Positions 21,516 through 53,774 of a DNA stretch of 58,727 nucleotides are shown here, piece after piece; position 1 is the stretch's first letter; every line of letters begins with the position of its first letter. A program made the translations under genes and the position numbers. The notes beneath the pieces were generated by a model, which was not told the DNA's origin, did no database searches, and saw only the letters and a program-made list of their open reading frames with translations. The DNA comes from a virus: IMG/VR virus record IMGVR_UViG_3300032287_001165, positions 1 through 58,727 of that record; one strand, written 5' to 3'.

Positions 21516-21534
21516 ACATGAGACTGTCCATCGT

Positions 21535-26451: not shown

Positions 26452-26830
26452 GTCAGATGTAGCGTATGTCATACGCTTTGAAACAGCAGAGCAACGAGAC
26501 ACATTCGTTGAGTTGGTCAAGCATCGCAACGATGCTATGTCAGAGGCAATCAAAGAATGCGAGACAAGGTATGAGCAACCAATCATCACATTCGAGGTAG
26601 AGGATGTGAAGTGGTACTCAGACTTCGACGATGTGAAAGCACACAACGCAATTCTGGATTGGTCAATCGAGCTTTATCCAGAGGCAGCCTATCGCATCGT
26701 TCAAATGGGTGAGGATGGGCAAGAGGAGTCAAACCAAGACGGTGATGCAGACGACATTTGGGACTACATCTACACATCGCACTCACTCAACACCGAGTTC
26801 CCCGCAATCAAATCAACCACAGAGGAGTAA
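26441..26830 (+). CDS. Conserved small phage protein (MGYRSDV family)
   Basis: A 129-residue protein starting MGYRSDVAYVIRFETAEQRD. The MGYRSDVxxxIxF start is a well-known opening of a widespread phage family of unknown function, with an alternating strand-helix layout (TFVELVKHRNDAMSEAIKEC, FEVEDVKWYSDFDDVKAHNA). It overlaps the previous gene by 11 bases. Acidic C terminus. Confidence 0.75.
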   Translation: MGYRSDVAYVIRFETAEQRDTFVELVKHRNDAMSEAIKECETRYEQPIITFEVEDVKWYSDFDDVKAHNAILDWSIELYPEAAYRIVQMGEDGQEESNQDGDADDIWDYIYTSHSLNTEFPAIKSTTEE

Positions 26831-26835
26831 GCAAC

Positions 26836-27792
26836 ATGTTTGGAAACACAACAAGACATATGCCTTATGTACGCACATACGCAGAGGCAGAAGAGCAATT
26901 CAACAAGCGCGGTGCAGTGCGTAGTGCTAAGTGGGCACCGAACGAACGCCCCATCTACAAGACCTACCACCACTATCGTGTGGTAAAGCACGCTGAGTAC
27001 TACGACATCATGCTGTACCGCACAGTGATGGCAAGGTACTTCACACCGCAGACCATTGACGGCAAGCTACATGAACGCTGTCTGTACATGGGCGACCAGT
27101 CCATAACAAGCAGAGACTTTATGTACCATGTGTTGGGTGTGGAGAGAGGGCTTAGAGAAGTCATGCCTGATGGAACAAAGGTGATAGCACCCATCTATCA
27201 CAGGTCGTCGCTACACCACGACGGCGAGTCATTCAGTGCCGACTACCTGTATGTGGATGGCGTGTTGGATACCAGCAAGTCAGTGCACACAAGACACTAC
27301 CGCAAAGTATCAAGCAAAGACGACAAAGCACAGCGTGCTGAGATGGTCAAGCGGTTCGAGCCGTACATCATGCTGGCGCAGATGCGGATGCCTGAGTTTC
27401 ACAACAACACATCCATCGACTACCGCGCAGGGCGACCATTCGGTGGTGGCAACGAAAGCAAGTATCGTGATGCGATAAGCGATATGGCTGGGGGTAGCAC
27501 TGAGCAGACAGACATCAATCACTTCTTTGAGCTGTGCGAAGACGCGTACACCACGCTCGTATCCAAGCGGGCATACAACCAGCGCAGCTTCAACATGGGG
27601 ACTTACAGGAACCCCGACACTGACCCCATCGACAAGCTGGAGAAACAGGTAACCCCATCAGAGTTTCGTACCGCCATCGTCGGGCGCATCAATAGACTGA
27701 CAGGTGCAAACGAACGCACCGAGTTGGTAGAGATTCCACAATTCGTTGTGGAGAGTGATTACCCCCGCACAAACATCGTGCTCAAAGGGTAA
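26836..27792 (+). CDS. Unknown early protein, 318 residues
   Basis: Starts MFGNTTRHMPYVRTYAEAEE at 26836, five bases after the previous stop with a GAGGAG site. Rich in Tyr, His and Arg; the segments IYKTYHHYRVVKHAEYYDIM, LYRTVMARYFTPQTIDGKLH and FHNNTSIDYRAGRPFGGGNE are distinctive, but I do not recognise the family. No P-loop or obvious catalytic triad. It is the last gene before the palindrome that precedes the AAA+/VWA module, so it may belong to a different transcript from that module. Confidence 0.7.
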   Translation: MFGNTTRHMPYVRTYAEAEEQFNKRGAVRSAKWAPNERPIYKTYHHYRVVKHAEYYDIMLYRTVMARYFTPQTIDGKLHERCLYMGDQSITSRDFMYHVLGVERGLREVMPDGTKVIAPIYHRSSLHHDGESFSADYLYVDGVLDTSKSVHTRHYRKVSSKDDKAQRAEMVKRFEPYIMLAQMRMPEFHNNTSIDYRAGRPFGGGNESKYRDAISDMAGGSTEQTDINHFFELCEDAYTTLVSKRAYNQRSFNMGTYRNPDTDPIDKLEKQVTPSEFRTAIVGRINRLTGANERTELVEIPQFVVESDYPRTNIVLKG

Positions 27793-27810: not shown

Positions 27811-27828
27811 CTGTCAAAGCTTTGACAG
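27811..27828. promoter_or_regulatory. 18-bp perfect palindrome before the AAA+/VWA module
   Basis: CTGTCAAAGCTTTGACAG is a perfect palindrome in the only gap of note (75 bp) on this stretch. A -35-like TTGACA (27822-27827) lies in its right half, and AT-rich DNA with weak -10 matches follows up to 27850. A dimeric repressor or activator site overlapping a promoter is the likely reading. Confidence 0.6.
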
Positions 27829-27867
27829 ATTGTGTTATAGTGTTAAACATTAAACAGGAGAAAACAA

Positions 27868-29064
27868 ATGAGCTTTGAGAAGATGACACTCAACCAGCGC
27901 ATACAAGCGGTCAACATAGACTGCATGCGCCATCCAAAGTTTGCACTGCTAAGCGGTGTGATATGTATGGGCAAGTCTGAGGTATCAGACAGCGTACCTA
28001 CTGCATCAACCAATGGGCGTGACAAGAAGTATGGGTCAACATTCATCGCGCCACTCAACCGCAAGCAACTACGCTACCTTGTACTGCATGAGAACTTCCA
28101 TGTGGCACTCAAGCACTGCGTGTTGTATCGCGCTGAGGTCAAGCGCATGCCTAAGCTATCCAACATAGCACAGGACTATGTGGTCAACGCACTCATCGAA
28201 GAGCTTGACCCTGACTTCACATTCGTCGAACGACCAACGCAGACCCTGTTGATTGACCGCAAGTATTTCGGTTGGTCTTTCCCTCAGGTGATGAACGACC
28301 TCATCAAACAGGGGCGCAAGGAACCTGAGGAAGGTGATGGGGGTAACAATGAAGACCACGGGTATGACGAACCCATCGACGCGCATGAGGATGGTGAGTT
28401 TGCTGACGACGACAAAGAGAAGCTAAGCAAACAGATTGACGATGCCAATCGTCAAGGCGAGATGCTTGCTCGCAAGCTTGCGGGTAAGGGCAGTGCGGGG
28501 CGTGACATCTTTGGCAATGCCAAGGAACGCATGACTAACTGGATACCATCCATGCAAGACTGGATAACCGCTGTGTCCCAAGGCGATGACAACTCACGCT
28601 TTTGTCCTCCCAACAAACGACTGCTTGCATCTGGCTACCTCATGCCGTCGCACTTCACCGAGTCAGTCGGCGAGTTGATACTTGCACCCGACACATCAGG
28701 TTCTATGTATCCGCACTATCGTTTACTCTTTGGTGAAATCTCTCGCATCTGTCAGCTAGTCAAGCCCGAGACTGTTCGCATCTTGTGGTGGGATGACGCT
28801 GTGTGCGGCGAGCAAGTATTCAAACCAAATGAATATGAACTGATTGCATCTCTCTTGCAACCCAAGGGTGGCGGTGGCACAACTCCGCAAGTTGTTGTCG
28901 ACTACATCCGCGAGAACAAGATAGATGCCAAAGCAATCGTATGGCTGACCGATGGATACCTCGGTTGCGATACGCCTAGCACCCCGATGCCGTCACTGTG
29001 GGGTGTGGTGGACAACGACTCGTTCGTTCCCACTCACGGCAAGGTCTTGCATATCACTCTTTAA
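27868..29064 (+). CDS. VWA-domain protein with N-terminal metallopeptidase-like (DUF2201-type) domain
   Basis: A 398-residue protein. Residues 74-78 are HENFH, an HExxH motif in a helix as in zinc peptidases. Residues 150-200 are a very acidic linker. Residues 268-398 form a VWA domain with complete metal-ion-dependent adhesion site: DTSGS (275-279), Thr339 in GGGGTTP and Asp362 in WLTDG. This domain pair occurs in bacteria beside MoxR ATPases, as here. Alternative: a CobT-like subunit, since CobT also ends in VWA, but CobT lacks the HExxH part. Ribosome site ACAGGAGAA. The gene heads the module behind the 18-bp palindrome. Confidence 0.82.
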   Translation: MSFEKMTLNQRIQAVNIDCMRHPKFALLSGVICMGKSEVSDSVPTASTNGRDKKYGSTFIAPLNRKQLRYLVLHENFHVALKHCVLYRAEVKRMPKLSNIAQDYVVNALIEELDPDFTFVERPTQTLLIDRKYFGWSFPQVMNDLIKQGRKEPEEGDGGNNEDHGYDEPIDAHEDGEFADDDKEKLSKQIDDANRQGEMLARKLAGKGSAGRDIFGNAKERMTNWIPSMQDWITAVSQGDDNSRFCPPNKRLLASGYLMPSHFTESVGELILAPDTSGSMYPHYRLLFGEISRICQLVKPETVRILWWDDAVCGEQVFKPNEYELIASLLQPKGGGGTTPQVVVDYIRENKIDAKAIVWLTDGYLGCDTPSTPMPSLWGVVDNDSFVPTHGKVLHITL

Positions 29065-29085
29065 TCAACACAAAGGAAAGCAATC

Positions 29086-30210
29086 ATGAATCAATATCTC
29101 TCTTCTTCACAAGTCATTGACCTCATCTCTGCTGTGGGTCACAAGCGCACCATCATCGTCGAGGGTGAGAACGGCATCGGCAAGACCGCGCTGTTCCATC
29201 AGCTCAAGCGTCTGCCCAAGTTTGCCAATCACATTGCCGTTGACCCCATCGACTGCACTCAGTTGTCCGATGGCTCGGTGTGGATGCCTGACCTTGACCG
29301 CGAGAACGGCATATCGCGTGAGCTTCCCAATGAACGCTTCGGTGTATCGAAGAACAATCAACGCGGTGTCAATGGTGGCAAGCCTGTGCTTATCGCACTC
29401 GACGAGATTGCCAAAGCACCGCAGTTCATCAAGAATGTTCTTGCACCTATCGTGTACGAACGCCGTATCGGCAACTACCACATGGTTGAGGGTAGCAGTG
29501 TCGTGTGCTTTACCAACCTATCTATCGAGGGTCTAGGGGACTCCATTCAAGCTCACTTGCGTAATCGTCTTGTGTTCGTCAAGATGCGTAAGCCGACTGC
29601 GGTCGAGTGGGTGCGTTGGGCTACCGATGCGGGTATCAATCCTATGGTCATTGCATTCGTTGACAACAACCCGATGGTGATGGACTCGTTCCTCGACTAC
29701 GAGAAGGGTGGCAAGTATGAGGGCAAGACACTTTCCAAGGACAACGGACACATCTACAACCCCAAGTCCACACAGCTCGCATACGCAACGCCTCGTTCGT
29801 TGACTGCCGCTGGTGACATCTTGGATGAAGGCATGCACGTACTCGACGACGACACACTTGAGCAAGCACTCATCGGTACTGTCGGTGTCGTTACTGCTGA
29901 GGCGATGGCATCGTTCGTTCGTTTCGGTCGTGACATCTGTGACTATGCACGCGTCATCGCTGACCCTGCTAAAGCACCGCTGTCCGACAACCCCACTGCA
30001 CAGTTGATTCAAGTCTTTCAGTTTGTGTCTCGCGCACAGACAAGAGAAGAAGCAGCAGCAGTCACTGAGTATGTATGGCGCATGCGTGCAGAGATGCAAT
30101 CAATCTTCTGCAACACAGTGTCCACATCTCAGCGTGTAGGCGTGTTCGTTACCAACACTAACTTCGGCAAGATGTTGGCTGAGCACAAAATCTTTTTCGG
30201 CACTAAGTAA
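29086..30210 (+). CDS. MoxR-family AAA+ ATPase (CobS-like)
   Basis: A 374-residue protein. Walker A GENGIGKT (27-34), Walker B VLIALDE (101-107), sensor-1 Asn in CFTNL (about 144) and Arg residues in AHLRNRL (157-162) that could serve as the arginine finger. MoxR-family ATPases work with VWA proteins to remodel targets or insert metals; the partner is the gene just upstream, 21 bases away. CobS of cobalt chelatase is a member, and cobS-like genes are known in cyanophages. The leader CAAAGGAAAGCAATCATGAA is nearly identical to that of the gene at 25197. Confidence 0.85.
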   Translation: MNQYLSSSQVIDLISAVGHKRTIIVEGENGIGKTALFHQLKRLPKFANHIAVDPIDCTQLSDGSVWMPDLDRENGISRELPNERFGVSKNNQRGVNGGKPVLIALDEIAKAPQFIKNVLAPIVYERRIGNYHMVEGSSVVCFTNLSIEGLGDSIQAHLRNRLVFVKMRKPTAVEWVRWATDAGINPMVIAFVDNNPMVMDSFLDYEKGGKYEGKTLSKDNGHIYNPKSTQLAYATPRSLTAAGDILDEGMHVLDDDTLEQALIGTVGVVTAEAMASFVRFGRDICDYARVIADPAKAPLSDNPTAQLIQVFQFVSRAQTREEAAAVTEYVWRMRAEMQSIFCNTVSTSQRVGVFVTNTNFGKMLAEHKIFFGTK

Positions 30211-30230
30211 TCAACCAAAGGAAACCAACC

Positions 30231-31118
30231 ATGAATACAAACACATCTTCCCGTTACAACATCGACACATGCGCGATGCTTGTTGAATTCAACGCATCAG
30301 TGTGGACAGCTCGCAAGCTGGACAAGACAACAACCGATGAGGTTGTAGCAACCAAGCATGCCGCCGCGAAAGATGCGGCTCGCGTCAACAAGCACCTGCT
30401 TGCAGGTCGCACAGAGCTGGAGGTTATTCAGCAAGCTGTTGGTCGTGCGCGTCAATATGTTTACGACAAGACATCGCCTTGGTCTGACTCAGGCTTGCGC
30501 TTGTTGCCCAACATATCGTTCATGTCTTTCACAGAGAAGCTTGATGACTTCGAGCATGAGTTCACTGCGTTGGTCAAGTCGTTCGTGACAATCTATCCAT
30601 CGTTGATTACCGCACAGGCGATGGCGTTGGGTGACATGTTCAAGAGAGATGACTACCCAAGCGCGAATGAAATCATGACCAAGTTCTCGTTCCGCGTGAA
30701 CTACATGCCCGTGCCCACATCGGGTGACTTCCGCGTAGATGTAGGCAATGCCGCACAAGCTGAGTTGAAAGCACGACTGGACAAGCTGACACAGGAACGC
30801 ATTGACAACGCGATGGCAGATGTACGCGAACGCCTCAGTGCCCACCTCAAACGCATGTCAGACAGGCTGACCACTGACTATGTGCAAGGTGAAGCTAAGC
30901 CCCGCCGTTTCCACGACACGTTGGTGGAAGGTGCGCTTGAGTTGTGTGACCTGACCAAGGCACTCAACATTGTGAACGACCCCGCGTTGGAGACAGCGCG
31001 TCGTGACCTCGAACAAGTACTGGTTGGTGTCACGCCAACTGAGTTGCGTAAGAACGAGGCGGTGCGTCAAGATGTCAAGAAGAATGTTGACGCAATCTTA
31101 AGTAAGTTCAGTTTCTAA
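30231..31118 (+). CDS. DUF3150-like protein of the MoxR/VWA module
   Basis: A 295-residue, mostly helical protein (SVWTARKLDKTTTDEVVATK, AARVNKHLLAGRTELEVIQQ, PWSDSGLRLLPNISFMSFTE). The W-A-x-K-LDK start, the P(W)SDxGxRLLP block and the RERLSAHLKRMSDRL helix recall DUF3150, a family of unknown function that goes with AAA+ ATPases of this kind in phages. It directly follows the ATPase (20 bases). It may be the third subunit or the target of the complex. Family call is from memory and moderate. Confidence 0.65.
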   Translation: MNTNTSSRYNIDTCAMLVEFNASVWTARKLDKTTTDEVVATKHAAAKDAARVNKHLLAGRTELEVIQQAVGRARQYVYDKTSPWSDSGLRLLPNISFMSFTEKLDDFEHEFTALVKSFVTIYPSLITAQAMALGDMFKRDDYPSANEIMTKFSFRVNYMPVPTSGDFRVDVGNAAQAELKARLDKLTQERIDNAMADVRERLSAHLKRMSDRLTTDYVQGEAKPRRFHDTLVEGALELCDLTKALNIVNDPALETARRDLEQVLVGVTPTELRKNEAVRQDVKKNVDAILSKFSF

Positions 31119-31133
31119 GAGGAGGGAACACTC

Positions 31134-31655
31134 ATGCCTGATTTAAAGACCGCGCTTACCACAGCGCTTTCATCGTGGGAACAAGACGACCAGAAAATTC
31201 AACAGGAGAAGAAATTGCCAAAACATATATTCACACCAACCAACAATGTGACGCAAGAGACATTCAACTATGTCAAAAACAACCCAAACAAGAACAGTGG
31301 TGAGATACGCGCCGCGCTTGTTGCGCGGGGGTTCAATGATGGGTCAGTAGGTTCTCTCATCACACAGTTCACAAAGCAAGGGCAGTTTGTGAAAGACCAC
31401 AATGGCAAGTACAAAACCATCGCGTCAACATACACCCCACTGAAATCATCCAAGCACTTTAGGGTAGAGGGTAAGACCAAAGTCAAAACAAAGGTGCCAT
31501 CAGTTAAGACAAAGCCACGCAGTGAAGGCATTGCCGCGCTGGCACCTCAAGTTACAGCAACAACTCAGTGGGATGCAGACACCATCATCAACAATATTGG
31601 CTTGAAACAGGCGCGAGCTTTGTATGATGAGCTGAAGAAGCTGTTCGGAGGTTGA
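31134..31655 (+). CDS. Putative winged-helix DNA-binding protein
   Basis: A 173-residue basic protein. Residues about 40-95 (VTQETFNYVKNNPNKNSGEI, RAALVARGFNDGSVGSLITQ, FTKQGQFVKDHNGKYK) have the helix-helix-helix-wing pattern of a winged-helix domain. A Lys/Thr/Pro-rich linker follows, then a short C-terminal helix (WDADTIINNIGLKQARALYD). GGAGGGAACACTC leader. It ends the AAA+/VWA group and could regulate it, or act as a replication accessory. Confidence 0.65.
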   Translation: MPDLKTALTTALSSWEQDDQKIQQEKKLPKHIFTPTNNVTQETFNYVKNNPNKNSGEIRAALVARGFNDGSVGSLITQFTKQGQFVKDHNGKYKTIASTYTPLKSSKHFRVEGKTKVKTKVPSVKTKPRSEGIAALAPQVTATTQWDADTIINNIGLKQARALYDELKKLFGG

Positions 31656-35574: not shown

Positions 35575-35871
35575 ATGCAGATACCCAAGAAAATCAAAGT
35601 AGGCACCAAGACCTACGCAATCATCCAAGTCAAGAAAGCAAGGACAAAGAACACCCTTGCCGCCATTGACTACACGCACGGCATCATCTGGATGGCGACA
35701 CACGACGAGCAAGGCAACAAGCTCAGCAACGAGGAAATGTCCGACACGTTCTGGCATGAATTGACGCACGCTGTACTGCACGACATGAACCACGTCATGT
35801 GTTACGACGAGAAGTTTGTGACAGCCTTTGCCAACCGTTTATCCTCTGCCGTGGACTCAGCTCAACTATGA
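35575..35871 (+). CDS. Small HExxH metallopeptidase-like protein
   Basis: A 98-residue protein. Residues about 59-70 (DTFWHELTHAVLHD) hold the HExxH zinc motif in a helix, with later His residues (HDMNHV) and acids that could complete the site. The N-terminal strands (KKIKVGTKTYAII, HGIIWMATHD) fit a minimal metzincin/SprT-like fold. Such small proteins recur in phage replication modules; the target is unknown. GAGGAGAG ribosome site. Confidence 0.75.
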   Translation: MQIPKKIKVGTKTYAIIQVKKARTKNTLAAIDYTHGIIWMATHDEQGNKLSNEEMSDTFWHELTHAVLHDMNHVMCYDEKFVTAFANRLSSAVDSAQL

Positions 35872-43941: not shown

Positions 43942-44128
43942 ACCGGGCGAGGGGTTTTTTGTTCCCGGACTGGACGTAGAAAAGGTAAGGGAGTTGGGGC
44001 TACGCGCCTCAATTCCCTACAAGTACCGCACTCAAGCGTTTGTTGGCATCAGAAAGGGATTGATAGGTGTATGGTTTTATCGGAAACCTCTCTCACCGTT
44101 TGAGCTACGGCGATCTTTATCTTCCTGA
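43910..44128 (+). CDS. Small conserved phage protein at the end of the early strand
   Basis: A 72-residue protein (MEIIYPWATLKPGEGFFVPG, LDVEKVRELGLRASIPYKYR, AFVGIRKGLIGVWFYRKP). The GxxFFVPGLDxxKVRExGLRA...GVWFYR pattern is a known small family that follows phage primase genes. GAGGAAGA ribosome site; it starts 32 bases inside the primase gene. Its last 80 bases overlap, on the opposite strand, the end of the giant late gene. Confidence 0.75.
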   Translation: MEIIYPWATLKPGEGFFVPGLDVEKVRELGLRASIPYKYRTQAFVGIRKGLIGVWFYRKPLSPFELRRSLSS

Positions 44129-47100
44129 TCTGGTCAAGTTGCTCACGCTTGGCTTCTGGTGTCATGCTTGATGCGGTGATTGCACGTTCGGCCTGAGTCA
44201 ACTTGTTCATGTTTGCTTTGAACTTGTTGGCCAAGTCTGCTTGCATGTATTCGTTGCCACGACGTTGGAGCAAGTCTTTGGCTTCCGACATACGCCCTTC
44301 CGCAACCATCCTGTCGAACGACTGTTTGACTTTGAGGTTCTCGTTCATGCGCTCATACACACTGTTGATGATGCCGCCAGCGTCGTTGGGTTGGAATGCC
44401 CCGCCAATGATTGGGTAGTCCGACAGCCGCTTGACCGCTTGCTCAGGAGTCTCACCTGTTGGTACGCCAACACTGAGTGCGTGCATGAACGCCAAGCCCA
44501 TCGTGCCTGTGTAGCCGCTGATGAGTTGCTCAAACACGATTGGGGAGATACCGAAAGCCTTACCGACCGACTTGGCCAGCTCAGATGTATTGGCGCGGAA
44601 CTGTTCTTCTGGTAACAGTTCTTTCTCCCGCGCAGACAGGATGTCCCTGCCTGTGTAGAACGACTTGCCAAGACCTGCCTCAATGGCGGGTTTCAAAGCC
44701 TGAGGTATGCCATAGGACGAACCGCCGGGGACTGTCTGCAACAAAATTTGTTTGAACGCCTTGACTGCTTCTTCGCCGCCATGCTCGTTGACCATGCTGT
44801 TGTACAGCGCCTCCGGCAATGCTTTGAAGATGTATCCAATCTCAAATGGGACGGGGATGCGCACAGGTTCATCCAGTCCGGGCACTCTCACAAACCAGTT
44901 GCCGTATTTCTGGTCAGGGGTAGCGTTCTTGTACGCGTCGTCGTCCTGCATCAAGGCGGCGTAGGCGAGGCTGGCAACAGCCATCATGGCTCCACGTTGC
45001 AACAACTTCTCACGGATACGCACCTGATCGTTGAACGGCATCTTGCCCATCGACGCTTTGTACAGCACGTTCAGACCTTGAATCTGGGCGTTGAAGAACG
45101 GGATCAGCGAATTGGCCACATGAACTGATGGGGATGCGCCACGCTTGTTAAAGTTCATGGACTCCAACGCCAGCAGTGTTGCCTCCATCTCAGACAGACC
45201 CTGCTCAATGTAGCTGTTGTACTGTGCACGACGTGTTGTGGCATCTGCCTCCATGCTCATGGCTTCAAGCTTACCCAGCGCAGTCATCCAACCCGGTTTG
45301 CCCTCAGCTACGTCACGCAGAATCTTGGTCAGGTCTGCGGCTCCACCAGTAAATTGCTGCCCACCAGTAACACCACGGCGCTCAAGTGTCTTTTTGGTTG
45401 TGGAGTTCAGTTCTTTCAATGCACCAATGACCGGCATAAAGTCTGCGCCAGAAAGAATAGGCGCGGCCAAGGAGTCACGGAACAATTGTTTTGCTGTGTA
45501 CAGCGGGCTGATGGTAATTGCTTTACGCAACAACTGAGATGGCATCGCCATTACACGCAGCATTGTGGGCATTTGTGTGGGAATACCCTTCATGCCTTTG
45601 ACCAGTATGTCGGCGGGCACACCAGTATCAAACTCTTTGTTGCCGATCTTGACTTTCTCGGTAGCAATCACAGCATAGCGATCTTTGCCGTCATCACGAA
45701 ACTTAACTACGTCAGGGCCGTCCGCAATTTTCACAAACTTAGCAGCTTTGAGATCAACCAATTCAAACACAGCGTTCTTGGTAGCCAAATTACGCATACC
45801 CATGTCCATCAACATGTTGGTGTTCTGCACCGAGCTTGTCATGAAATCAAGGATGGGTTTGTCGCCACCTATCAACTCATGTAAGTACGGTTGTTCAGCA
45901 ATACTGCCAATGCGGATGGGGGACTCGCCACCAATTAAAAGCTCGGCCACGCCGTTGCGTTCACGATAAAACGGGATGTAATCGTTCTCACTTAACAAAC
46001 GCTTGGCCACATCTTTAGACAAAGCACCAGTGCTAACAACAAACTCAACCAAGTTGCGGTTGTACGCGTTGTACTCATCTCGCGCAAGTTTAAGCACATC
46101 CTCTAGGCCGGGTGTAGCCTTGATGGCGGCCATAGTGTCATCCAGCAGTTCTTGAGTCACATCTTCACCAAAATTCAACGTGCTCAGCCCTTTGTTCTTT
46201 GCGCGAAGTGCGGCCATATACAAAGTAAAAACACTGTTCACAGCTTCTGCGTTGCCCACCATAGGTTGTGCGTCTTTCAGAATCTGCACCACGTTGTGAA
46301 TGTTGGCGCTTTCCTTGCTCTCTATCACACGCTCAACACGCCCATCTGGGCGAGTCTTCTCCACGATTGCAGGTGCGCCGTTGGAGATTGCTTGCGACAC
46401 AAAGTTCATGCGCTGGTCGTACATGCGCAAGTAGTACAGCATCTGCGTGCCTTTGAGTGGCTCCATGTATTTGGCCAAACGCTCGAAGCCTGCAAACCTG
46501 TCCACAAGCTGTGTCTCAAAAGCCAGACCGGTCAAGTTGGCTTTAATTTTCTGCCACAAACTTCTGTCCTTGGCCACAATCTTTTTGATAAAACCGCCAC
46601 GCTTGGCAATCTCAGGGTTTGTGAAATCTGCGGCACGCGAGAACAGTATCTCGCCTTTTTGCATTGGTTGTGTTTGATTGATTGGGTTGATGTCAGTAGC
46701 GATGATCTGCGCACCTTCATCTTTATCACCAAAGTCAACATAGTTGTATGTACCGGGTACTCCTGAGCTTGTAGCAGAATATCTTGATACACCATCAAAA
46801 AACTTAATACCCGCAACACCTTCAGCGTGCAACATCTCAGATGCAAACATGTCGCACAACTCACTTGGCATACCGTTTTGTTCAAGCACGGCACCTAAAG
46901 CGTTATACAAATCACGCCCATTTTGTCGGTCTGCCCGCACATGGCCTATTGAACGGTTAAACACTGCTTGTTGTTTTTTGTCCAATGAATCGTAAATGCG
47001 TTTGAACGCGTCTTTAACAACTTCTGGTTGTTTGTCTGCGTGGCTATCATAAAGAATGTACTCGTTTTCTGGACGCGTATGCAATGTGCGCATCATGTAG

Positions 47101-50100
47101 CCTGCTGGCTCAGGTACAGGTGGTGCCGACGCAGGGTTATATTGGAAATCGTTTACATCAAACGCATCAATAGCGTTTACAGTTTCTTTTGCTTCGTCGT
47201 ACACTTGTTTTGTGTAGGGGTCTTTTCCATAAGTAAAACGCTTAAAGAAATCTTCAAATTCTTTTAATGTTTTGGTTTCTTCGGTTTTCACACGGGCAAT
47301 AGCTTCTTTCCAAGACGGCGGTACACCGTCGTTGGCATCCATCATTTTTTCAAATGCGTGTATAACTTTTGCGGCAGCTATGTTTGTTTTATACGTGTCA
47401 ATGTAATCTTTGCCTCTGTAAACAGGCGCGTAATAAACAGCTGCCAAATCTGCATCTGCCGTTTCTGCAAACTTTTTAAGTTCTTGAATTTTTTTATCTA
47501 CTTCTTCAAGTGATAATCCGCGCATCCATTCAACACGCCAGCTTGTAGGTTTTGCTACTGTTTTTACGGCAACAGGCCCGTACCCGTAGTTTCTAATTGG
47601 GGTAGCAGTTACGCGTGTAGGCGTACCCATTGCCCTAACTTGTGCTGCGGTTATAGGTATAGCAGTTCGCGTTGGTTTTGCAGATGCGGGTAAATTTGCT
47701 AAAGGATATTTTGGTTTCTCCGCCTCAATGTTTTCTATTTCGCCTTGAATCGCTTCTTTAAAAACTTTATGTGGGTTTTCAATGCCGTTTGCGTTACCCG
47801 CTTCGCGCAAAGGCATATTTAAAAACTGTTCTGGAATACCTGCTGGCAGTTTACCTACAAATCTGGGTTTTTGGCTTTCAAACCATGCTTGTATATCCGG
47901 GCGATCAATCCATTGGTCATAAAGGCCGCCTATTTTTGTAACTGCTTCTACACGGTAAGATTCAGCAGTGCCGTATTTTTGTGCGCGATATGTTCCCCAA
48001 CCATATGATTGGGCTTTTGAACCCGTGTTCATATACGTATGGTCAAACATATCAAACTTGACGCCTGTACCGTGCCAAGTTCCTTTGAGTTCAAGGTGTG
48101 CCGCGCCGTAGGCAAAGTTCACCAAGTCTCCAGCAGTCAAGTTTTTGGCGCTGATACCAAACTTCTCAAGCGCTTTTCTAAACCCATCCACCACCATCTT
48201 CAACCAGTTCTTGACTGCGTTGCCGCCTTTAACACCGACAGGCTCAACACCCATCTGCATAGCTTCTTCAACAGCGTATGCCAACAACTCATCGTCAATC
48301 TGGTGTGGGGGAGTGTTAGCAGCCTCAACCCTGCGCACGGCGGCTTTACCAACACGCGCCTCCATTGAGTCTTCAGTTTTGTTTGCCCAGTTCTTGACTG
48401 TTTTGACCAACGCGTTGTACTGGCCTTCGTTAAAGAAGTTGCGGAACCCCATGTGCACGCCAACTTCGTGGAGCAGCACGCCAAGTCCGTGGCCTTTACC
48501 GATGTTGTTGGCAAACAGTACCGCTTTGCCGTTTTGTACAAAGCCTTTGGCATCTGCTGGAATTAAACCCTCGTATTCAGATTTGCCTGTACTTTTTAAT
48601 TTTGGTTGCTTATCAAGAAAATCTTGAACACTCTCATACACCGCCAATTTATTGGACACCAGCGCTTCAACCTTACGCCCAGTCACAGGCTCGCCCATAC
48701 CGGCGGTGAGTTCTGCTTCAAGCTCAGCCTTGGTCAGACCTTTTACGGGGGTGCCGCGAGAGAACTCAAAGTCATCAAACAACCCCATGTTGGGGTCAAG
48801 CATTTTTCCTTGCTTGCGTTTGCTTGGTTCTTTTAACTGTGGTGCTTTGGTACCAAAAATCTTTTTGGACAAGTCATTGGCATCGCGTATCTCAGCGCGA
48901 TTCATCTCATCCAGTTCTTCTGGCGTAAGTGCTTTAGTTACGCCTGACCCAGTGCGAAATGGCTTAGCCGCCGCCAACGCGGCGGTGCTCGGCACAGTAG
49001 CAGCCTTTGGTTCGGGAGCAGGTTTGCCTGCAAGGAACACTTCTTTCTGCGCTTCCAACGAAGCCAGCTTTTGCATAGCGCCCAACTTGAGCGTAGCTTG
49101 TACACGTTTGACGTTGGTTGTCTTGGGGTCGGCCATGATGTCGGCCAACTGATCCATGTTCTCAGGCCCCATGAACGACTGCACTTCACCACGTGCGTCA
49201 AAGATCTCGTCATCAAATATTTGAGTTTGTTTGTCTTTGACGCGTTGAAGCACTTCGGCTTCATCAACTTCTTTGGCTGCTTGCATGCCTTTGTCACGCA
49301 GATCATCAAGGCGCTTCTGCTCAGGCGTGCTGATCTCAGCAACTTTGCGGCCTTTTTCAAACACTGCGCCGGGCAAGTCTTTAACGCTGATGCCGTCTTT
49401 CTTGAACGCAGCAGTGACTTTGGGCCACCAGACCTGCACATCTTTCTGGAACTCTTCTGCACGTTTTTGCGCTTCGTCTACAGCAGCCTGCTGTGCTTTT
49501 ACTTGCGATTCCAAACGCTGTGCGGCAAACGGGTATTTGAGTTTACCTAGCGCACCCACTCTACCAGTCTCAACAGCCGTCAGTGGCTCCTTGCGCATAG
49601 TTGCAAGTTGACGCTCAAGCAACTCCAAGTACTCCCGTTCTGCCTTGAGGTCTTTGTCCAGCATTGCTTCAGTGACGACAACATCGTTTTCAATTTCACC
49701 AAAGCGTGCTTCTTGCAGGTCGGCCAGTTCTGTTTCAGCCGCCTCAATGTTCTCAACAAGCCCTTGAACTTTTTGCAAGTTGTTAATCAGGTTTGGCGCT
49801 TGGCCAGTACCCTCAGTCATTTCTTTCTTAGCCGCTTCAATCTGCGACTCAACTGTGGCCAGACGTGTCTTAGCAGCTTTCAAAGCACGACGTGCGCGTT
49901 CAATTTCAGGGTCAAGCAACTCACCCAACGTATTAGACAGGCGTTGACGGGCTTTGCCCATCGCCTTGGCCATGGCATCTTTGTAAGCGCCGCGTTGTGA
50001 TTGCAACGCAATTTCGGAGTCAAGCATTGCGCGTTGACCGTCAGTCAAAAAAACAGAGTTACGCAAACTGTCTTTGATGAGCTTTAACTTTTCCAGTAGT

Positions 50101-53100
50101 GGTTCAACAGTTTTGCGAGCTGCTTCTGATTGTTTACGCACAGCCGCATTACTGTCTTGCATCAGTTCAACTAAACGGTTGTTTGTGCTTTCAAGACGTT
50201 GCCCCAATGAAAGTGCTTGCAGAGCCTGCTTAACGTTCTTTTCGTACTCAGGAATTTTGTTTGTGTTGAAGTCTTGAATTAACTTGTTTACTTTTTGTTT
50301 TTGTTCTTCAGTAAACACAGACATTGCTTTTTCTTGTTGCGCAGCCGTCTTACCAATATTTTGTCTGGATACTTGCAAGTAACGATCCATCAGCAGCTTG
50401 TCTTCTTTTGTAACGCCTGCTTCTGGATATGACGCAAACATTTTTGCAATGTCTGCGTTCGAGTACTTGCCAATATTGAAGTCTCCCGGCTTAAGCAGGA
50501 AAAACTGCATTTGATTTTTAATGGCTTCAAGTTGTTCTTCTATTGCTTCAACTTGCGCAAAGCCTTGTTTGTCTCTGGCAGAACGTGCTTTTTGTTTGGC
50601 TTCTGTTTTTGCTTTGACTTTGCGTGCTTGCGCTAACGCTTCCCACACAGGTTTGATTTGTGGGGACTTGGCAAAGTTGGCGGCAGTGGCGCGGATGTAC
50701 CCCAGCTCTTTACGTGTTTCAGGGAACAACTGGCCTTGACCTTTTTCGCCTTCTCCAACCGCTTCACCTTCCTGAGCTGTACGTTCATACAGCTTAATGG
50801 CATCTTGAAGCTCACGCAATGAGCTACCTTCGGGTGCCAGTTCGGCTTCGTAACTTACCGTTTTGTATTTGCGCCCACGTTCTCCAAAGCGTGTTTCTGC
50901 TTCTCTGCCGGGGACATTCTCTACAACGCGTTTGCCGGAAACTGCTTCGCGTTTTGTGTATACCTGTTTGCCAAGGTCTTCGCCGCGCAAAATGCGGGCG
51001 GCTTGATTCTGGGCTGCGTCCAACAATGTTTTGCTGGCTTTGCCGTCGTCAATGATTTCTTTGGCACGTTCCAGTGAGTTTTGAATTTCTTCCGGCGGGT
51101 TGCGTGTCAGCGCTTTGTCTATCATGTTGCCCACGTATTCACGTAGGCGGCGCATTTCTCCACCAGTCGTCTTGGCTGTTTCACCACGGGCTTCGGCAAC
51201 CTTTTGCGCTTCAGTGGCGGCAAACTGTTGTTTCAGTACAGGAACTTCGCGGGTAGCTGTGGATGGCAGTTGGGATAAGTTGTCAACAACTTTGGCAATC
51301 TGGGCTTTGAAATGCTTGACTTCCTTGTCGCTCAGACGGGCAATCTCATTCAACGGCGTGGTGGCCAGATCACGGGTCTTCAAAACACGTTTGGTAACAG
51401 CGCCACGGATAAGTTTGTTTGCCCGCATCTGCGCTGGCTGCACCACTACTTCTTCAAGCTCAGGTTTCACAGGCGCTGCCTGTGCACGGCTCAACCATTC
51501 ACCCACCACATCATGAATGCGCGACGCGGCCTTGATAGCTTCGTCGTAAGTCAGTTCGGGTTTACCCGAAACACGGCGGTGGATGGCAGCTTCTTCCAAC
51601 ACGGCAGATATGTACTTGCCACGGGCTTCTTCAGCTTGCTTGGCCAACATTTCGGGGGTGGCAGCAGCCACACCTTTGCCGGGTTCTACACCTTCTCTGC
51701 CCAAAGCATCACCACGGCGCAGGCGGTCAATCTTGTCTTCAATCGTGTTTAAAGCCGTGTTTTGTTCATTTCGTACACGCAGTACTTCCCGGGCATAAAC
51801 GCTGGCTTGTGGGCTTGTTTTGGCGCTGGGGAAACGCCCTTTTGTCAGTTCTCCAGCAGGTGTGGGTTCTGCAAAAGCGTTGATTTGCTCAAGTGCCTGA
51901 TTGCCTCTTTCAAATGCTGCGGTTGCAGCGTCACGGTTGTTTGAACGCAGTGCGGCATCTCTGTCCGTATTAGCTTGGTCTATTTCATCCAGCAACGTGT
52001 TTATCTTTTCCCGCGAACGTTCTGCCATTTTGGGCTGCGTGAACGGTTTCAGCTCAGGGTTTACCGCTATGACTGGGGGTTTACCTTCAGCAATCTTCTC
52101 CAGCTTCGGCTCGACCATGTACTTAAAGAACATGTCATCACCAACGTCATCACGCTGGCTCTTGAGGTCGTCCATGTAAGACGTAAACGCCTGTACTTGC
52201 GGAGATTCTTCTGTCGGTTGAGGCACACCAAACGCGGTCTTGCGTGCGCCCATTTCTTGTTCAAAGGCGGTTTTTTCAGCGGTGGCTTTCTCTTTACGCG
52301 CAGGCGCAAGTTGCAATTTCAGCGCGTCCAACACCGCAGAATTACGCACACCGGTGGGCAATCCGGGCAGTTGCATTCTGTTGCGTTCAATGTCTTCAGC
52401 CAAGTTGGGGTTACGCATCAGGTATGCGACGTAGTCGGCCACCGCTGCGTTGGGGGCTTTCTCACTGGCAAGTTGCTGGTTGTTGGCCAACTGAATACTC
52501 TCAGCGGCATACCGCGTCGCAGCATCTTCCGCCTTCGGTGCCGTGGGCGGCACGATTTCTTGGTCGTAATACATCCGTGGTTCGGATGGCGCTTGTGCGG
52601 CTTCTTCTGGCTTCAAACCCAACGCATACTCGTACGGGGTCAGCTTGGCAACCTTCTCTTCTTCAGCAGCACGTTTCAGAATAGGCTTGACACGTACATA
52701 CTCATCCGCCAACGGTTTGAGTTCTTTGTTTATGGCTTCAATCTGGCGATTGATTTCGCGGTTGTTTGCATAGTCCGTTTCTGGGGATATGCCTTTCTTT
52801 ATGGGGATCAGCTGCGACTTGAGCGCCTTACGCTGGGCTTCCAAGTCCTGCGTCTTCTGGAACACTTCTTGGGCGTACTCAGGGCTGTTCAGCCGTATCT
52901 TTTCTTCTTCCTGCTGTTTCTCAGCTTCAGCACGGGCTTGCTTCACCTCATCTGTAAGCGGAGTTGTGGGCGCACGGCGACCGATAGCTAAGTCCAACAA
53001 CCCTTGTGCCAACGCACCGACTGCACCGCCGTAGGCAGCAGACTCACCAACCTGCTCAATGATTTCTTGCTCAGGTTTATATATACCTTTGGTAATAATG

Positions 53101-53774
53101 TTCTGCGCTGCTTGAGACGCGGCTTCTTGTGCGGCCTCCTCGCCGCCAGCCATCAGGGCACGCTTGACATACGACGTGGCACCCTCAAGCACAGGCTCCC
53201 CAAGACGTTTCAGAATACGTGTGGGGGCAAACATCTCTGTCGCACCGACCACGGCACCCAGTGCAGTGGAAGCAGTTTGTTGTCCTTCTGTCGCGCCTTC
53301 AGCGGCAGATTTCTCTACCTGTGTGCCAGCACCAGCGCCAATACCAAGGCCATATCCGGCTACACGCCCAGCCAGACCAAACGGCCCAGTGGCAAGGAAC
53401 GGTGCAATAGAGCCTGCGGCTTCACCAAACTTGCGCCCCACCGTGTCTTCATACCCCGGCGCAGCAGCAAACGGAGCCTTGGCTGCGGCAGCAGTCTCTT
53501 TGATGTATTTTTGTGTGGCTTTTTCTTGTTCTTCTGGGAGCAGTGCGGATATACCGGTACCAGCTTGCTCAACAAGACCAATAGCGCCGGGGACAAGACC
53601 TTTAAAGAATTCTTTGGTCTGCCCACCAAACGTGGTTTCTTTTGGTGCTGCCGGAGCTGCAAGTCTAAACGCCTCAGGATACATCTGCTGCGCTCGGGCA
53701 TATGCCTGCTGCGGGGTTTCCCCCTCTCTGATTGCTACGTAACTACCATCTGGTAACGGGACAGCTTGAGGCAT
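44049..53774 (-). CDS. Giant polyvalent internal virion protein (metallopeptidase-like, ADP-ribosyltransferase-like, LPD38-like)
   Basis: A 3241-residue protein. The start LPDGSYVAIREGETPQQAYA is a common opening of injected virion proteins. Residues about 80-270 are Gly/Ala-rich and amphipathic; 270-1650 are largely coiled coil. HEVGVH at 1769-1774 is an HExxH peptidase-like site. An ADP-ribosyltransferase-like domain of the polyvalent type starts at about 1895 (GTWHGTGVKFDMFDHTYMNT, AQSYGWGTYRAQKYGTAESY) and ends at about 2360 (LHAEGVAGIKFFDGVSRY, GTYNYVDFGDKDEGAQIIAT); a long AT-rich insertion lies between. Residues about 2900-3060 (PFFNAQIQGLNVLYKASMGK, RVPGLDEPVRIPVPFEIGYI) match LPD38. 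It is probably ejected into the cell to act on the host. Confidence 0.88.
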   Translation of the reverse strand: MPQAVPLPDGSYVAIREGETPQQAYARAQQMYPEAFRLAAPAAPKETTFGGQTKEFFKGLVPGAIGLVEQAGTGISALLPEEQEKATQKYIKETAAAAKAPFAAAPGYEDTVGRKFGEAAGSIAPFLATGPFGLAGRVAGYGLGIGAGAGTQVEKSAAEGATEGQQTASTALGAVVGATEMFAPTRILKRLGEPVLEGATSYVKRALMAGGEEAAQEAASQAAQNIITKGIYKPEQEIIEQVGESAAYGGAVGALAQGLLDLAIGRRAPTTPLTDEVKQARAEAEKQQEEEKIRLNSPEYAQEVFQKTQDLEAQRKALKSQLIPIKKGISPETDYANNREINRQIEAINKELKPLADEYVRVKPILKRAAEEEKVAKLTPYEYALGLKPEEAAQAPSEPRMYYDQEIVPPTAPKAEDAATRYAAESIQLANNQQLASEKAPNAAVADYVAYLMRNPNLAEDIERNRMQLPGLPTGVRNSAVLDALKLQLAPARKEKATAEKTAFEQEMGARKTAFGVPQPTEESPQVQAFTSYMDDLKSQRDDVGDDMFFKYMVEPKLEKIAEGKPPVIAVNPELKPFTQPKMAERSREKINTLLDEIDQANTDRDAALRSNNRDAATAAFERGNQALEQINAFAEPTPAGELTKGRFPSAKTSPQASVYAREVLRVRNEQNTALNTIEDKIDRLRRGDALGREGVEPGKGVAAATPEMLAKQAEEARGKYISAVLEEAAIHRRVSGKPELTYDEAIKAASRIHDVVGEWLSRAQAAPVKPELEEVVVQPAQMRANKLIRGAVTKRVLKTRDLATTPLNEIARLSDKEVKHFKAQIAKVVDNLSQLPSTATREVPVLKQQFAATEAQKVAEARGETAKTTGGEMRRLREYVGNMIDKALTRNPPEEIQNSLERAKEIIDDGKASKTLLDAAQNQAARILRGEDLGKQVYTKREAVSGKRVVENVPGREAETRFGERGRKYKTVSYEAELAPEGSSLRELQDAIKLYERTAQEGEAVGEGEKGQGQLFPETRKELGYIRATAANFAKSPQIKPVWEALAQARKVKAKTEAKQKARSARDKQGFAQVEAIEEQLEAIKNQMQFFLLKPGDFNIGKYSNADIAKMFASYPEAGVTKEDKLLMDRYLQVSRQNIGKTAAQQEKAMSVFTEEQKQKVNKLIQDFNTNKIPEYEKNVKQALQALSLGQRLESTNNRLVELMQDSNAAVRKQSEAARKTVEPLLEKLKLIKDSLRNSVFLTDGQRAMLDSEIALQSQRGAYKDAMAKAMGKARQRLSNTLGELLDPEIERARRALKAAKTRLATVESQIEAAKKEMTEGTGQAPNLINNLQKVQGLVENIEAAETELADLQEARFGEIENDVVVTEAMLDKDLKAEREYLELLERQLATMRKEPLTAVETGRVGALGKLKYPFAAQRLESQVKAQQAAVDEAQKRAEEFQKDVQVWWPKVTAAFKKDGISVKDLPGAVFEKGRKVAEISTPEQKRLDDLRDKGMQAAKEVDEAEVLQRVKDKQTQIFDDEIFDARGEVQSFMGPENMDQLADIMADPKTTNVKRVQATLKLGAMQKLASLEAQKEVFLAGKPAPEPKAATVPSTAALAAAKPFRTGSGVTKALTPEELDEMNRAEIRDANDLSKKIFGTKAPQLKEPSKRKQGKMLDPNMGLFDDFEFSRGTPVKGLTKAELEAELTAGMGEPVTGRKVEALVSNKLAVYESVQDFLDKQPKLKSTGKSEYEGLIPADAKGFVQNGKAVLFANNIGKGHGLGVLLHEVGVHMGFRNFFNEGQYNALVKTVKNWANKTEDSMEARVGKAAVRRVEAANTPPHQIDDELLAYAVEEAMQMGVEPVGVKGGNAVKNWLKMVVDGFRKALEKFGISAKNLTAGDLVNFAYGAAHLELKGTWHGTGVKFDMFDHTYMNTGSKAQSYGWGTYRAQKYGTAESYRVEAVTKIGGLYDQWIDRPDIQAWFESQKPRFVGKLPAGIPEQFLNMPLREAGNANGIENPHKVFKEAIQGEIENIEAEKPKYPLANLPASAKPTRTAIPITAAQVRAMGTPTRVTATPIRNYGYGPVAVKTVAKPTSWRVEWMRGLSLEEVDKKIQELKKFAETADADLAAVYYAPVYRGKDYIDTYKTNIAAAKVIHAFEKMMDANDGVPPSWKEAIARVKTEETKTLKEFEDFFKRFTYGKDPYTKQVYDEAKETVNAIDAFDVNDFQYNPASAPPVPEPAGYMMRTLHTRPENEYILYDSHADKQPEVVKDAFKRIYDSLDKKQQAVFNRSIGHVRADRQNGRDLYNALGAVLEQNGMPSELCDMFASEMLHAEGVAGIKFFDGVSRYSATSSGVPGTYNYVDFGDKDEGAQIIATDINPINQTQPMQKGEILFSRAADFTNPEIAKRGGFIKKIVAKDRSLWQKIKANLTGLAFETQLVDRFAGFERLAKYMEPLKGTQMLYYLRMYDQRMNFVSQAISNGAPAIVEKTRPDGRVERVIESKESANIHNVVQILKDAQPMVGNAEAVNSVFTLYMAALRAKNKGLSTLNFGEDVTQELLDDTMAAIKATPGLEDVLKLARDEYNAYNRNLVEFVVSTGALSKDVAKRLLSENDYIPFYRERNGVAELLIGGESPIRIGSIAEQPYLHELIGGDKPILDFMTSSVQNTNMLMDMGMRNLATKNAVFELVDLKAAKFVKIADGPDVVKFRDDGKDRYAVIATEKVKIGNKEFDTGVPADILVKGMKGIPTQMPTMLRVMAMPSQLLRKAITISPLYTAKQLFRDSLAAPILSGADFMPVIGALKELNSTTKKTLERRGVTGGQQFTGGAADLTKILRDVAEGKPGWMTALGKLEAMSMEADATTRRAQYNSYIEQGLSEMEATLLALESMNFNKRGASPSVHVANSLIPFFNAQIQGLNVLYKASMGKMPFNDQVRIREKLLQRGAMMAVASLAYAALMQDDDAYKNATPDQKYGNWFVRVPGLDEPVRIPVPFEIGYIFKALPEALYNSMVNEHGGEEAVKAFKQILLQTVPGGSSYGIPQALKPAIEAGLGKSFYTGRDILSAREKELLPEEQFRANTSELAKSVGKAFGISPIVFEQLISGYTGTMGLAFMHALSVGVPTGETPEQAVKRLSDYPIIGGAFQPNDAGGIINSVYERMNENLKVKQSFDRMVAEGRMSEAKDLLQRRGNEYMQADLANKFKANMNKLTQAERAITASSMTPEAKREQLDQIRKIKIAVAQTVREVSDKTIHLSIPF

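Follow-up and report, generated by a model that had tools for sequence, protein, structure and literature searches.

A MoxR-clade AAA+ ATPase, a protein combining an HExxH domain with a VWA domain, and a DUF3150-like helical protein are encoded side by side in the phage record analysed here, and this gene trio is inherited jointly in phages, in conjugative plasmids and in chromosomal islands. The trio is probably one energy-driven protein-remodelling machine that acts early after entry of the element into the cell, and not a tool for virion assembly. Our main reading, to which we assign a probability of about 0.6, is that the three proteins are one unit in which a ring ATPase, guided by the MIDAS of its partner, would remodel a DNA-handling complex early. 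That the three proteins work together is very likely, and we put a DNA-handling complex as their target at just under even odds.

Layout of the locus and a conserved operator-like site

The window, that is, the whole stretch of DNA that was analysed, comes from IMG/VR as a virus record 58,727 bases long. Genes for a portal protein, a terminase and a head protein are located on the − strand, and genes for a family A polymerase, a helicase, a primase-like protein and a PD-(D/E)XK nuclease on the + strand. The trio lies on the + strand inside this non-structural module, with spacing of 20–21 bp between the ORFs (Table 1); its description and coordinates in an earlier note on this DNA were correct on ORF check. 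The length of the upstream neighbour was counted from the first ATG, and a start at the TTG at 26758 would give 344 aa. The winged-helix-like downstream neighbour showed a weak match to a MarR-like PHROG. On the strand of the structural genes, a 3241-aa protein (44049–53774, −) carries an LPD38 large polyvalent protein domain near its C-terminus (2.5e-30) and is a candidate virion-injected polyvalent protein. A 98-aa protein at 35575–35871 carries HELTH, a small zincin-like motif, and generated no hit in a Pfam search.

Table 1. Features of the trio locus and its putative regulatory sites (positions in the window)
Feature	Position	Strand	Occurrence in relatives
Second TGTC-N8-GACA site, overlapping the predicted early rightward promoter TTGACA-N18-TATAAA	21525-21540	.	
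Upstream neighbour, 318-aa protein without assigned function	26836-27792	+	67/80 complete loci
Operator-like palindrome CTGTCAAAGCTTTGACAG, core TGTC-N8-GACA	27811-27828	.	
-10-like hexamer TATAGT, 3′ of the palindrome	27836-27841	+	
HExxH metallopeptidase-like domain + VWA (MIDAS) protein, DUF2201 type, 398 aa; N4 gp25 relative	27868-29064	+	
MoxR-clade AAA+ ATPase, 374 aa; N4 gp24 relative	29086-30210	+	
DUF3150-like helical protein, 295 aa; third partner	30231-31118	+	
Downstream neighbour, winged-helix-like protein	31134-31655	+	69/80 complete loci

The palindrome in front of the trio, which the earlier note had picked out, is perfect over 18 bp and is kept in relatives well beyond chance. 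TGTC-N8-GACA was found upstream of the first trio gene in 65 of 69 distinct regions, against a background of 0.0135 per 160 bp, and a -10-like hexamer was present 3′ of it in all 65 site-bearing regions. The site and the -10 box accompany the trio whichever gene leads. As the three TGTC-N8-GACA sites in the window are by count alone within chance, the argument for an operator rests on position and conservation, by which the palindrome is regarded as a conserved operator-like site. The trio promoter was missed by a simple promoter scan and was found by comparing relatives. The site at 21525 stands where the rightward genes begin, and several relatives carry the same site together with a TATAAA-type box. 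The two promoters bearing TGTC-N8-GACA suggest a two-promoter phage regulon, in which the trio would have a promoter of its own, active early and controlled by an operator that the main early promoter also carries.

Conserved sites in the three proteins

The VWA protein passes both DUF2201 cut-offs in Pfam (DUF2201_N, 7e-14, 52.5 vs 23.2 bits; DUF2201, 4e-10, 40.4 vs 26.4 bits) and belongs to PHROG 1314. The label ‘HNH endonuclease’ attached to this PHROG was rejected for the VWA family, in which Pfam sees DUF2201 only; the label is spread across many phage records. The motifs HENFH (residues 74–78), DTSGS (275–279) and TDG (361–363) are present. The MIDAS ligands D275, S277, S279, T338 and D362, and the HExxH-domain residues H74, E75, H78, H83, N99, A101, D103 and N107, are invariant in 16 of 16 diverse members, N4 gp25 included. 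The HExxH motif was thus where the earlier note had placed it, as were the DTSGS and TDG parts of the metal site; the threonine that it gave as Thr339 has to be replaced by T338, T339 not being conserved. In the predicted structure, the best fold matches were VWA/MIDAS domains, with the MIDAS domain of midasin first, and no zincin fold was found among the best 50 PDB fold matches listed.

Three Paraburkholderia plasmids are the one clade that departs from this conservation. Their VWA proteins have lost the HExxH site and D103, the residues at 74, 75, 78, 99, 101, 103 and 107 being L, K, Q, S, S, Q and T/S, and retain all MIDAS residues, and the plasmids retain both partner genes. Because this clade lost the HExxH site and kept the MIDAS, the two sites are separable, and the role of the VWA domain is independent of the HExxH site. 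The joint disappearance of the HExxH-domain residues indicates that they act as one site, with D103 as the likely third metal ligand. The N-terminal domain would accordingly present a zincin-like site (H74, E75, H78 and probably D103) that may clip the target or just hold it. Peptidase activity of this domain is possible, but, given the plasmid clade in which the site is lost, it cannot be a universal requirement.

The ATPase carries Walker A (GENGIGKT), Walker B (LDEI), sensor 1, an arginine finger and a sensor 2 arginine. G30, G32, K33, D106, N144, R161 and R237 are invariant in 15 diverse members, R161 being assigned as the arginine finger and R237 as sensor 2 from their position. The protein alone generated weak AAA matches in Pfam (AAA_5, 15.2 bits vs a cut-off of 22), 9 of 15 family members match AAA_5, and its PHROG match was ATPase family 1297 (6e-35). 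Searched against solved structures, the family profile matched midasin (1e-30), ClpC1 (7e-7), NorQ (6e-6) and CbbQ (2e-4). By motif and profile, the ATPase is classed as a MoxR AAA+ protein of the midasin/NorQ type; the types that the earlier note gave for the ATPase and the VWA protein, and the Walker motifs, proved right.

The third protein fell slightly under the cut-off of Pfam DUF3150 (PF11348; 4.6e-5, 23.3 vs 24.9 bits), and 7 of 16 members of its family match this model at E < 0.01. Profile–profile comparison with canonical DUF3150 aligned 231 columns (hhalign E 2e-9). We regard it on this basis as a distant DUF3150 homologue rather than a Pfam member, so that the DUF3150-like call made earlier stands as a statement of homology and not of Pfam membership for the window protein. 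Its structure model was poor (pLDDT 68.5), too weak to interpret, and a PDB fold search with it gave no match. As Pfam DUF3150 misses a Dechloromonas family member that the genome does carry, the count of 4 in 299 genomes obtained with Pfam is too low; a narrower alignment was used for the genome scan described below, the pan-family DUF3150 alignment being too diverse. No mention of DUF3150 was found in the literature searched, which held no subscription papers.

The AAA and VWA pairing is also that of CobS/CobT, and relatives of another VWA subfamily match CobT_C, which would fit a chelatase inserting cobalt or another metal, or a cofactor. The VWA subfamily here is DUF2201, however, not CobT, and no role in chelatases is known for either the conserved HExxH site or the DUF3150 partner. 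A search for CobN (PF02514), which the earlier note had reported missing, gave no match in the window record, which may be a fragment. A chelatase role is therefore highly improbable.

Joint inheritance in phages, plasmids and chromosomal islands

IMG/VR was searched with each of the three proteins, yielding 171 loci before duplicate removal. The complete trio was found in 80 of 80 distinct phage loci with room for all three genes, in the order VWA-MoxR-DUF3150 (45 loci) or MoxR-VWA-DUF3150 (35 loci); each of the remaining 17 loci is truncated by a contig end at the flank that should hold the missing gene. Single-sequence queries retrieved the phage loci, most of which are closely related to one another. 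Cyanophage MinM2 carries the trio within 4.5 kb. The gene trees of the three proteins from 18 diverse loci are congruent (r = 0.82–0.94, Mantel p ≤ 0.0005). The survey of phage genomes that the earlier note had proposed therefore found the triplet together in every testable locus, and its proposed comparison of homologues found the HExxH and MIDAS sites invariant in the diverse set, the Paraburkholderia plasmid clade apart.

Direct protein searches of plasmids gave matches to the third protein of up to 3e-28, and the plasmid matches to the VWA protein fell mostly in the same genera, often in the same records. These direct searches are independent, whereas E-values from iterated-search profiles are inflated for members used in building the profile. 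Among conjugative or mobilizable plasmids, 9 of 10 loci examined contain the trio, in the order MoxR-DUF3150-VWA. The plasmid trios are often located immediately 5′ of T4SS genes, two sit after a PRTRC cassette, and in a Simplicispira plasmid the ATPase gene lies 3.6 kb from the rest of the trio. The exception is a Nitrospirota plasmid, in which the DUF3150 protein is present and a DUF2201-type VWA protein is absent. When bacterial and archaeal genomes were scanned with the third protein, 17 loci emerged, and 12 of 12 uncut loci were complete; as the third protein served as the query for the cellular loci, information comes only from the co-presence of its two partners. The genome contigs show two further gene orders besides the phage one, and the trio occurs in chromosomal islands from at least three phyla; one or two of the short genome contigs probably represent phage DNA that ended up in metagenome bins. 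Neighbours of the trio in cellular loci include Toprim/primase, RadC, RecT, SSB, PD-(D/E)XK family and Rad52 genes.

This distribution bears on virion assembly or processing, in which the ATPase and the HExxH-VWA protein would mature structural proteins. Such a role was proposed for the MoxR/metallopeptidase-vWA pair of group 2.2 jumbo phages (PMC7824862), and in Acidianus two-tailed virus p618, which is present in virions, binds the VWA protein p892, the two acting in tail development (PMC4124505). However, conjugative plasmids and chromosomal islands retain this trio as well, and because they produce no virions, a shared function must be sought outside virions. Moreover, the trio in the window shares strand and module with replication genes and has its own putative promoter, and the N4 counterparts gp24 and gp25 are middle, not late, genes (PMC4193335). 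We consider virion assembly unlikely, and a virion target, one of the two suggested in the earlier note, is disfavoured on the same grounds. Early establishment or DNA handling fits better, since conjugative elements make no virions and ssb, recT, primase, radC and T4SS genes are found nearby; DNA-metabolism genes abound on mobile elements in any case, which makes the neighbourhood weak evidence for the target itself.

Related systems and the proposed role

The closest relatives of the pair are found in N4-like phages (Schitoviridae), which carry homologous, adjacent ATPase and HExxH-VWA genes as in the window; the window proteins match phrog_1297 and phrog_1314, whose linked homologues are N4 gp24 and gp25. 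These are core genes of N4-like phages with no assigned function (PMC4193335, PMC7650795), and no published knock-down data for them were found in the literature searched. No DUF3150 homologue was detected anywhere in the N4, Presley and VBP47 genomes. The ‘complete three-part machine’ of the earlier note is therefore a conserved unit of the window lineage and does not extend to N4-like phages. The jumbo phage pair has the same architecture, a MoxR ATPase and a vWA protein with an N-terminal metallopeptidase domain, but no third partner is described for it (PMC7824862), and the proposed virion processing leaves plasmids and islands unexplained.

MOBH plasmids such as pCAR1 and a Providencia plasmid carry a parallel trio, in which an AAA ATPase and canonical DUF3150 are joined by a VWA protein that is NorD/CobT-like, in contrast to the DUF2201 type of the window, and has invariant HExxH and EDxRIE motifs of its own. 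In the conjugative plasmid pCAR1, which also carries ssb and recT, the three genes are in one transcribed operon; the pCAR1 paper (PMC2642839) noted the AAA and VWA genes, described the ORF101–103 region as conserved in R478, Rts1, SXT and R391, and suggested a link to transfer. The genes ssb, recT and exo adjoin the parallel trio in the Providencia plasmid and are about 10 kb distant in pCAR1. Loci L205, L209 and L210 combine canonical DUF3150 with a NorQ/CobS-like AAA protein and a NorD/CobT-like HExxH-VWA protein, with ssb, recT and exo adjacent in L210. At the canonical DUF3150 loci L204 and L207, the ATPase and VWA profiles, which would miss the other VWA subfamily, gave no match within 16 kb.

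Midasin/Rea1, NorQ-NorD, CbbQ-CbbO and RavA-ViaA likewise join an AAA ring to a MIDAS partner and act on cellular targets; midasin ranks first among sequence matches of the window ATPase and among fold matches of the window VWA domain. To our knowledge, none of the four has a comparable HExxH peptidase-like domain or a DUF3150 partner. The vWA-MoxR ternary conflict systems (VMAP, FtsH and beta-propeller types; PMC7159879) also build three parts on a MoxR-vWA core, but their third components appear unrelated, and they are cellular and defence-like whereas the trio resides on mobile elements. The MoxR/metallopeptidase-VWA pair is thus already known from N4 and jumbo phages; what appears to be new is the constant third partner, the distribution over phages, plasmids and islands, the operator, and a peptidase site that is separable.

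The main rival to a DNA-handling remodeller is counter-defence or host takeover, in which, shortly after entry, the trio would unfold or cleave a protein of host defence or regulation. Phages and conjugative elements, which both carry the trio, meet host defence on entry; the putative early promoter would suit such timing, and some trio neighbourhoods hold Fic, toxin-like and restriction-modification genes. The ATPase/VWA lineage is old, however, and its sites are invariant, unlike those of fast-changing anti-defence genes, and no PADLOC match rose above noise. NCBIfam likewise returned only noise. We regard counter-defence as possible but doubtful.

For the DNA-handling remodeller, we infer the following course. 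The MoxR-clade ATPase would assemble as a ring, and the VWA protein would join it in a complex as the substrate-presenting partner, its MIDAS metal site gripping the target as in midasin, NorD/CbbO and ViaA. The DUF3150 protein would serve the unit as its own third component, with adaptor or client as the most likely role. The trio would then remodel an annealing recombinase, SSB or a replication complex during establishment, and this complex may belong to the incoming element or to the host. We only tentatively extend this to a three-subunit ‘establishment’ machine general to mobile DNA, with parallel DUF2201 and CobT/NorD versions, in which an AAA ring, an HExxH-VWA protein and DUF3150 would remodel or clip an annealing-recombination or replication protein on incoming DNA.

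The presence of the trio in plasmids and islands with a constant third partner shifts the likely target away from virion machinery, and the plasmid clade that has naturally lost the peptidase site tells which of the two sites is the core. The function of the unexplained core pair of N4-like phages may thus be testable through pCAR1-type plasmids and through phage N4 in E. coli K-12.
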